DNA from: a virus
Strand: one strand, 5' to 3'
Virus record (IMG/VR): IMGVR_UViG_3300005531_000030
Coordinates: 1-25,532 of that record
DNA: 25,532 nt
Of this stretch, positions 3,245-25,532 are shown piece by piece. Each line of letters starts with the position of its first letter. Position 1 is the first letter of the stretch. The translations under genes were made by a program, and so were the position numbers. The notes beneath the pieces were generated by a model. It saw only the letters and a list, made by a program, of their open reading frames with translations, was not told the DNA's origin and did not search any database.

Positions 3245-4556
3245 TTCGTCAATAATTCTGCCGCCGGATTCCACCGGCAAGCCGCTCGACGCGGGCACGG
3301 TCACGACCGGCGCGGGCACCGTCTACCGCGAGCGCATGGCTGTCGGCGATCCGGCAACGGGCGGCAACATCGCGGCGGTCACGAATGCCGCGCCTGGCTC
3401 AACTCCCTTTGGCCTTGTAACGTGGCCAGTCACTTCCGCTTCTCAGCCGCTTCGCGTTGATCCGGTAGGCACGACCGTCCAGCCCGTGAGCGGCACCGTC
3501 ACCGCGAATCTCGGCACGCTCAACGGCGCGGCCACCGCCGCGAAACAGCCCGCGCTCGGCACGGCAGGCACGCCATCCGCCGATGTGCTCACAGTTCAGG
3601 GCGCGGCGGGCATGACCGCGCTCAAGGTCGATGGCTCCGCTGTGACGCAGCCGGTCAGTGGCACGGTCGGCATTTCCGGCACTCCCGGCGTCAATCTCGC
3701 GCAAATCGGCGGCACGGCCCTCAGCGGCGCGAATGTTGTCGATACAGTCAATACGGCTTTGCGCGTCAACGTTGTCGCGGGCGGAGCAAGCGGCGGCACG
3801 TCCTCGTCGTTTGGCGCGGCGGTTCCCGGCACCGGCACTGCGGCGGGCTTTTCCGACGGCACGAACATGCAGCTTGCGCGCGTGTTCGATGCCGACACCG
3901 GCGCAGGCACGCAATACGTTCTTGGCGTCAATCTTCGCAAGTCCGCTTCGGGCGGCTCGACGGAACTCGCCGGGCAAGCCACGATGACGAACTCGATTCC
4001 CGTCGCCATCGCTTCGGACCAATCCGCCGTTCCCGCGTCGCAATCCGGCACGTGGTCGGTTCGCGTCACGGGCAACGCGGGCGCGAATCTCGACGCCGCG
4101 ACTGGCTCTTCGGTTCCCGCGAACGCTCTTCAGTCCGGCCGCCGCGCCGCGAGCGCGCTTCCCGCTTCCGTAACGGACGGCCAGCTTGTCGCGCAGATGG
4201 CCGATACCGCCGGGCGCGCCATCGTGCGGAGCGGAGGCCCGCGCGAGCTTTTGACGGCGAACAACCTGACGCTCACGACCACGACGGTGACAACGCTTAT
4301 CGCCGCCGGAGCCGCTGGCGTATTCCGCGACTTGACGTTCCTTCAGGCGAGCAATACGTCTGGAACGAACGTCCGCATCGACGTGAGCGACGGCACGCGC
4401 ACGTATTCTTGGTTTCTCGCGGCGAATGGCGGCGGCTTCAACGTGAATTTCGATCCGCCGCTGTGCGCCACAACCGCCGCGACGGCGTGGACCGCCGCTA
4501 TCAGCGCCGCCGTCACCGACGTGCGAGTCAGCGCGCAGAGCGTGGATACGAAGTGA
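3237..4556 (+). CDS. Repetitive virion surface/fibre protein, 439 aa
   Basis: Low-complexity Gly/Ala/Thr/Val-rich protein with the phage-type beta repeat QPVSGTV at about residues 82-88 and 138-144, spaced by Asn/Gly-rich linkers. The C-terminal hundred residues (about 340-439) form a cleaner beta-sandwich candidate (FRDLTFLQASNTSGTNVRID). Such QPVSGTV proteins are common in environmental phage structural regions and are thought to be fibre, decoration or baseplate-like components. No signal peptide or Cys cluster. The gene ends with a GTGA overlap onto the next gene, with which it likely forms a virion surface module. The exact role is inferred. Confidence 0.7.
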   Translation: MADSSIILPPDSTGKPLDAGTVTTGAGTVYRERMAVGDPATGGNIAAVTNAAPGSTPFGLVTWPVTSASQPLRVDPVGTTVQPVSGTVTANLGTLNGAATAAKQPALGTAGTPSADVLTVQGAAGMTALKVDGSAVTQPVSGTVGISGTPGVNLAQIGGTALSGANVVDTVNTALRVNVVAGGASGGTSSSFGAAVPGTGTAAGFSDGTNMQLARVFDADTGAGTQYVLGVNLRKSASGGSTELAGQATMTNSIPVAIASDQSAVPASQSGTWSVRVTGNAGANLDAATGSSVPANALQSGRRAASALPASVTDGQLVAQMADTAGRAIVRSGGPRELLTANNLTLTTTTVTTLIAAGAAGVFRDLTFLQASNTSGTNVRIDVSDGTRTYSWFLAANGGGFNVNFDPPLCATTAATAWTAAISAAVTDVRVSAQSVDTK

Positions 4557-12996: not shown

Positions 12997-13505
12997 TGCT
13001 CATTCAGACCAACCCCAATGCGCGGGGGGATCGCAAGCTCTCCCCGCGCGAAGCCCTTCTCGCCAAATTCGAGGAAACCGAACGCGCCGTACGCAAGTTC
13101 CGCCTCGATGATCACGACCTGCTGAAGGACAAGGACGCGCGTCTTGGCAAGCCGATGGCGCATACCGAACTCATTCGGCGCGTCGTGAAGATGAATCCGA
13201 ACGTGTGGGCCGAGGACAGCATCAATGACCGCAATTGCGTCGGGTTCTACACAACGGGGCCGGATGGCAAGAAAAAGTATCTGGTCGCGTTCGAGAAGGG
13301 CATATTGCCCGAGTTCAGCTACATCCTGGTGGACCGCGCGGATTTGCCTGTCAAGGAAAAGCGCGGCTACAGGACGGTGCTGCATCGCCTGCTCTTGCAG
13401 AACGCCGTCAAATGGCGCGACGTTCTCGAAGCGTTCGGCGATACAGGCATCAACGAGGTTACCGCCCGCTGGCGGCATAACACTCACAGGTTTCGCCAGC
13501 AATAG
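12996..13505 (+). CDS. Hypothetical head-region protein, 169 aa
   Basis: Starts MLIQTNPNARGDRKLSPREA; charged, with a central beta-rich core (CVGFYTTGPDGKKKYLVAFE) and a basic C-terminal end (ARWRHNTHRFRQQ). ATG overlaps the capsid stop, so it is coupled to capsid translation. No named family recognised; likely a conserved head or packaging accessory protein, judged by place. Confidence 0.75.
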   Translation: MLIQTNPNARGDRKLSPREALLAKFEETERAVRKFRLDDHDLLKDKDARLGKPMAHTELIRRVVKMNPNVWAEDSINDRNCVGFYTTGPDGKKKYLVAFEKGILPEFSYILVDRADLPVKEKRGYRTVLHRLLLQNAVKWRDVLEAFGDTGINEVTARWRHNTHRFRQQ

Positions 13506-25296: not shown

Positions 25297-25325
25297 CGCG
25301 GCCAAGTTACGCGGCGTTGCGTTCA

Positions 25326-25339
25326 TTTTGCGTGCAAAA
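25326..25339. repeat. Perfect inverted repeat near attachment site
   Basis: TTTTGC-GT-GCAAAA, six-base arms, lies about 80 bp upstream of the tRNA fragment in non-coding DNA. It could be an accessory or arm-type recombinase site, or the end of the last transcript; it lacks a following T-tract. Confidence 0.35.
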
Positions 25340-25421
25340 CCTGGCCTATTTAGGACGGTTTCGGGCGCTGAGAGCGGGTAAGGGACGCGGAATCAGCGGG
25401 ATTTAGCGTATACCCGTCAGT

Positions 25422-25466
25422 CTCATAACCCGAAGGTCGTCAGTTCAAATCTGACCCCCGCAACCA
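25422..25466 (+). other. Putative attachment site: 3' part of initiator tRNA-Met
   Basis: 45 bp match the 3' part of a bacterial initiator tRNA-Met: anticodon loop CTCATAA (25422-25428, anticodon CAT), stem CCCGA, variable AGGTC, T-stem GTCAG/CTGAC with loop TTCAAAT (25439-25455), acceptor CCCCGCA and ACCA. The final A before the discriminator (the C1-A72 mismatch position) and three C of the anticodon stem are initiator hallmarks. The 5' half is not intact. A fragment starting exactly at the anticodon loop is what tyrosine-integrase attachment sites in tRNA genes look like, so this is attP or a prophage end. The integrase is not in the window. Confidence 0.75.
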
Positions 25467-25482
25467 CAATTCGTTCATAACC

Positions 25483-25523
25483 AGCGGCTTGGCAGGCGTC
25501 ACTGCCAGGCCGCTTTCGTTTCT
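25483..25523 (+). terminator. Strong rho-independent terminator
   Basis: A 13-bp stem (25483-25495 with 25502-25514, one G-T wobble), a six-base loop and the tail TTCGTTTCT. It follows 17 bases after the encoded CCA of the tRNA fragment, where a tRNA gene's own terminator would lie. It may be bacterial DNA at a prophage border, or part of the phage's captured attachment region that restores tRNA termination after integration. Confidence 0.8.
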
Positions 25524-25532
25524 GCGTTCGTT

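Follow-up and report, generated by a model that had tools for sequence, protein, structure and literature searches.

Why does a virus contig from soil carry, close to its end, the 3′ part of a bacterial initiator tRNA gene? The window analysed here, to which all positions refer unless a locus is named, is the whole of IMG/VR virus record IMGVR_UViG_3300005531_000030 (25,532 bases, classed as linear), and its status as a tailed phage rests on matches to terminase, portal, major head and internal virion proteins. An earlier note had read one short stretch of this record as an attachment site in an initiator tRNA-Met gene. The observation is confirmed, and the reading, which we judge to be essentially right, is supported and further strengthened by arm-type repeats and by a likely integrase-gene end adjoining the fragment. 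We estimate a probability of roughly 0.8 that the site is the attP of a tailed, temperate phage that infects soil Acidobacteria and whose tyrosine integrase is encoded mostly beyond the contig end; the phage itself is probably temperate. The features that enter the argument are as follows.

25319..25340, plus strand: presumed P-arm integrase sites, two repeats with an 11-bp period
25422..25466, plus strand: putative attP core, the 3′ part of an initiator tRNA gene from C32 to CCA
25422..25428, plus strand: CTCATAA, the anticodon loop and presumed 7-bp overlap (crossover) region
25440..25532, minus strand: presumed end of a tyrosine integrase gene (last 30 codons plus stop), overlapping the core and cut by the contig end
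25483..25514, plus strand: terminator-like hairpin with a 13-bp stem, 16 nt after CCA
25523..25532, plus strand: presumed beginning of a P′-arm site, cut by the contig end

The tRNA fragment and its bacterial counterparts

The fragment occupies exactly 25422-25466 and runs from position 32, where the anticodon loop begins, as far as CCA, without a 5′ half. The initiator-type features visible within it are the anticodon-stem CCC and A72, both of which we take to be marks of initiator tRNAs. The 45-mer is present in a single copy in the window even when up to three mismatches are allowed, and none of 100 shuffled sequences gave a match. ARAGORN found no complete tRNA in the 25.5-kb record, and a search of the window with Rfam returned no match at gathering thresholds.

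All 45 bases are identical to the 3′ part of a gene called tRNA-Met(cat) by ARAGORN in two Acidobacteria MAGs, and thus the identical stretch that the earlier note had proposed to look for at bacterial tRNA-fMet genes is present there. Identity to the host gene ends at C32, where the three preceding bases are A-G-T in the window versus G-G-G in the host. Joining the host 5′ half to the window fragment yields a hybrid that ARAGORN recognizes as a complete tRNA-Met whose anticodon stem is GGG/CCC. Position 1 of the acidobacterial gene is U, and positions 1:72 are drawn as a U-A pair, whereas the E. coli initiator tRNA has a C-A mismatch at 1:72. Across 43 fragments (42 acidobacterial ones and that of a second viral contig, L002), agreement with the host gene is seen in 42 at C32 and in 25 one base before. 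PMC8371274 describes how the anticodon loop, usually of 7 bp, and the stem that closes it correspond to the overlap region and the core sites used by integrases of the lambda type, and this rule, together with the identity that starts at C32, is the basis on which CTCATAA is presumed to be the crossover region.

The exact 45-mer occurs in 26 of the 89 genomes examined from the acidobacterial family of genome G005, at 39 places, and in only one of 396 genomes drawn across the phylum, which is G005 itself, the centre of the search. As far as sampled within the phylum, it is therefore limited to one family. These proportions point to that family as the host, and it is our best guess for a survey that used the 45-mer only and covered Acidobacteria.

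Only one other IMG/VR contig carries the exact 45-mer. This contig (L002) is an 8,319-base phage fragment with other genes, which ends shortly past the same tRNA fragment with the integrase-like tail SSKPFVIN and a stop. As both contigs break off near the core, they may do so at a common branch of the assembly. Given that its other genes differ while the tRNA fragment and integrase-like tail recur, different phages appear to share an integration module. A looser pattern retrieved 42 stretches from IMG/VR, which our script scored as 31 with an intact upstream half, 10 fragments and one that was cut too short. One of the 10 (L030) is a complete tRNA according to ARAGORN, which leaves nine, and two of these lie in one record. 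These 42 stretches indicate that the initiator tRNA gene recurs in or beside virus records.

Sequences flanking the fragment

The repeat GCGTTCATTTTGCGTGCAAAAC at 25319-25340, located 103 bp upstream of the core, was first spotted by eye and then scored with a motif taken from relatives, against which it reaches 13 of 16. Among the 254 blocks of 200 bases into which both strands of the window were divided, one attains this score. Shuffled sequences attained it in 11 of 5000 cases anywhere in the 200 bases, and in none of 5000 at 101-104 bp before the core. The same kind of tandem repeat, with its 11-bp period, is located 101-104 bp before the core in 9 of the 42 other fragments for which 150 nt or more of upstream sequence is available, and in none of 32 intact tRNA genes; the remaining 33 of the 42, and thus most fragments in relatives, lack it. 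When the exact motif of the relatives was sought before the core in viral contigs, none matched, and a pattern this strict would miss the window as well. We consider the repeat at 25319-25340 a likely integrase arm site.

On the other side of the core, relatives carry in their integrase ends a tandem repeat, GTCCAAC..GTCCAAAA, which also has an 11-bp period and is located 56-57 nt after CCA in five rows of our alignment. In the window, GCGTTCGTT starts 57 nt past CCA, and 10 bases of this presumed P′ arm are present before the contig ends. Nine of these 10 bases (25523-25532) are identical to those at 25318-25327, and the stretch is presumed to be the beginning of a P′-arm site.

Between the core and this presumed site is the hairpin at 25483-25514, which was recovered by a terminator scan, has a fold z-score of -5.18 and was matched in stability by none of 200 shuffles. 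No neighbouring viral contig with this hairpin was found. Several copies of the tRNA sequence that have no integrase nearby carry a different terminator type, GGCCGGA..TCCGGCC.

The minus strand is open for 30 codons from 25532, and its stop codon at 25440-25442, a position computed by hand, falls inside the tRNA fragment. The frame ends in ...KPLVMNELWLRGSDLN followed by the stop, and its final residues KPLVMN compare with KPFVIN plus stop in L002 and in the bacterial locus L048, the common motif being KPxVxN. The opposite-strand gene of L048 matches the integrase domain PF00589 with an E value of 4.2e-20. When the 66-nt flank after CCA was compared with those of other loci, the best matches were L048 and L049, each with a score of 34, which none of 300 shuffles reached and which exceeds the maximum of 29 for a best-of-all null; these two loci had been retrieved by a pattern derived in part from the window itself. 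The best acidobacterial flanks that are free of this bias (L092, L063, L058, L074 and L072) score 24-28 and beat every shuffle in their own comparisons, but not the best-of-all null. In two Acidobacteria MAGs, found by scanning genome contigs for the tRNA 3′ end plus the flank common to the window and L002, an intact tRNA-Met gene is followed by an opposite-strand gene whose stop codon is 3 nt past CCA; L048 is one of these two cases.

Judged from these similarities, the short minus-strand frame after CCA is likely, though not proved, to be the end of a tyrosine integrase gene. The earlier note had proposed to look for an integrase beyond the window. The presumed gene would not be remote, since its last codons apparently overlap the site, although the lack of any PF00589 match in the 25.5-kb record counts against the reading.

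The initiator tRNA gene in the acidobacterial family

A query with the whole tRNA-fMet gene matched 78 of the 89 family genomes, and many of these genomes have extra matches that begin at about query position 33, at C32 give or take one or two bases, and extend to the end. Manual reading found an intact gene together with a 3′ fragment on 13 contigs, and in all 13 the fragment is located downstream in the same orientation. Loci for closer inspection were taken from a longer list of matches (30 loci; 40 regions), and the merging of identical contexts left 75 acidobacterial rows in addition to the window and L002. The 75 copies comprise 32 intact genes and 43 fragments.

Where the flank measured 600 nt or more, a home-made HMM detected an opposite-strand integrase downstream of 15 of 28 intact copies and of 6 of 38 fragments, leaving 13 and 32, respectively, with no integrase nearby by this measure. 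PF00589 was found in nine of 10 representative downstream ORFs. The ORF at L114:819-1304 has no Pfam match, yet it matches the home-made HMM at 2e-7 and is included in the 15 of 28. Within each genome the intact gene and the fragment share the same T-arm variant, except for one base in one fragment of genome G006, and one fragment of G018 differs from its intact gene outside the T-arm.

Other elements are thus integrated at the initiator tRNA gene in this family. On contig 5 of G006 (positions 1-39361, L085), an intact gene at 39317, which has an integrase, is accompanied by downstream fragments at 13448 and 1036, all within 38 kb, in what appears to be an array; contig 150 of G018 likewise has two downstream fragments. 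A separate observation concerns the viral contig L054, where at about 3450-3800 the end of an integrase frame adjoins the 3′ fragment of a tRNA-Met-like sequence; past it, inspection by eye showed another integrase-like frame that converges on the first. This region is perhaps a tandem junction within a viral contig.

The earlier note regarded an initiator tRNA as a less usual target. For this family the displaced fragments, the adjacent integrases and the arrays argue otherwise, given that the first two are common in the host group, and we consider the gene a likely integration hot spot there. A broader proposal, to which we assign even odds, is that the family's initiator tRNA gene, of which each genome seems to have a single intact copy, serves as a busy point of entry for phages and islands that are not related to one another and whose integrases belong to several lineages. 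A common attP plan would be found in many of these elements, with tandem arm repeats of 11-bp period some 103 bp upstream of the core, an integrase gene that ends at or in the core, and a terminator borne by the element, so that the working 3′ half of the tRNA gene would repeatedly be supplied by mobile elements.

Proposed integration, rival readings and known systems

Provided that this phage does integrate, its tyrosine integrase, the gene for which would lie on the opposite strand and mostly past the contig end, would bind to arm sites that flank the core to the left and right. Strand exchange would take place within the 7-bp anticodon loop CTCATAA of the host initiator tRNA gene, and the 45-bp phage copy would then take the place of the severed 3′ half and rebuild the essential tRNA. 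The displaced host 3′ half would mark the far end of the prophage. The hairpin at 25483-25514, brought in by the phage, may end transcription of the rebuilt gene and perhaps that of the converging integrase gene.

The contig end can be read in other ways. It could be a junction within an integrated array, at which the right end of this prophage and the tRNA fragment are followed by the end of an integrase gene that belongs to another element, inserted next to it at this tRNA gene. Such a junction resembles attP, and arrays are present in the host family on the G006 and G018 contigs noted above. However, the left and right repeats of the window are more alike than either is like the GTCCAAC type seen in the relatives, which suggests one integrase for both; this comparison involves only 10 bases. 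We regard an array junction as unlikely rather than negligible. Our initial suspicion was that the 3′ flank is host DNA, which would make the contig end an attR prophage/host junction followed by the host's own tRNA terminator. A hairpin is indeed present after CCA, where a host tRNA gene would have one too, and the contig ends a short distance beyond. The suspicion was dropped once integrase tails were read in this flank, which is most like integrase-gene ends, and several copies that have no integrase nearby possess the other terminator type; we now give this reading the smallest probability of all.

Hardly more probable is that the fragment is a relic, inherited from a temperate ancestor by a phage that can no longer integrate. 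The record has no integrase domain, and no recognised lysogeny gene was seen among the proteins scanned, as this reading would predict, but the record is only a fragment of a genome. Moreover, the 45 bases show zero mismatches to the host gene, and the arm-like repeats and the open integrase tail are still present.

The proposed mechanism is classical, namely tRNA-restoring integration of the anticodon type, and the site is of a well-known kind. In the Islander collection, 2083 of 3919 islands have anticodon-centred sites, and tandems of two or more number 125 (PMC4383910). Like its class A sites, the present site has a 3′ tRNA fragment that starts at the anticodon loop, a tRNA that would be rebuilt, an expected displaced fragment at the far end and, in relatives, an integrase gene beside the site, and tandems are possible. 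What sets it apart is the presumed target, an initiator tRNA in a family of Acidobacteria, and the position of the presumed integrase end and arm site, which reach into the core or directly adjoin it, a terminator hairpin lying in between. A presumed 7-bp overlap in the core and flanking repeats that resemble integrase arm sites are shared with attP of the lambda type (PMC8371274), although the arm sites here are predicted from sequence alone.

Mycobacteriophages that exhibit tRNA-dependent lysogeny also use a tyrosine integrase and an attB that overlaps an essential host tRNA gene, but there phage and host share a core of about 10 bp, integration does not restore the host tRNA, and the phage brings a complete tRNA gene with it (PMC10865867). 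We set this system aside as a model given that the 45-bp core here would rebuild the tRNA, and the 25.5-kb record, part of a larger genome, has no tRNA gene. Prophages have been reported in Acidobacteria in general (PMC5900883), tRNA-Met is a target of Mesorhizobium elements (PMC8627217), and fMet genes occur in phage-related sequences of Sinorhizobium (PMC11476347). Titles and abstract openings in the open-licence literature yielded no description of this site in Acidobacteria.

What is added to this known scheme is a narrow assignment to a specific, little-studied host group and a likely hot spot. An orphan soil-virus contig is tied to a narrow group of hard-to-culture Acidobacteria, with concrete junctions to seek. 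The site and the relatives of its integrase could become an integration tool for bacteria that have few genetic tools, and the initiator tRNA gene is flagged as a hot spot worth mapping in the family.

An integrated copy of this phage at the tRNA gene was not seen by a terminase search of a sample of 399 genomes of the class, which gave only two weak matches, one at 31% and a partial one at 40%. Megablast of window positions 1-25000 against 50,697 phage records returned no relatives. Relatives of the terminase are present in the viral contigs L003 and L004 (46%) and L005 (28%), and these three records contain neither the tRNA fragment nor a PF00589 match.

Several minor observations on virus records are given for readers who may wish to pursue them. 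In IMGVR_UViG_3300048996_000137 (64,626 bases), the same initiator-tRNA 3′ fragment with the same upstream bases is found at two places (L008 and L036, the pair of looser-pattern fragments that lie in one record). One copy is 2 nt from a locus end and an integrase is located 87 nt past the other, and the record may represent a circular phage genome whose ends carry attP. Cyanophage PSS2 (L128, at about 3000) and Ruminococcus phage NatCom_29429 (L127, at about 1416) carry the 3′ part of an initiator-like tRNA without the usual 5′ half, and these may be further attP sites of this type, with different hosts. Finally, at 110-210 and 430-505 of the window, a module with TTTCTGCCCCGATGGGGCATGTG and GCGATAGGACTTATCGC was noticed by eye to occur twice, each time before a short leftward frame, and it is perhaps a repeated regulatory site.
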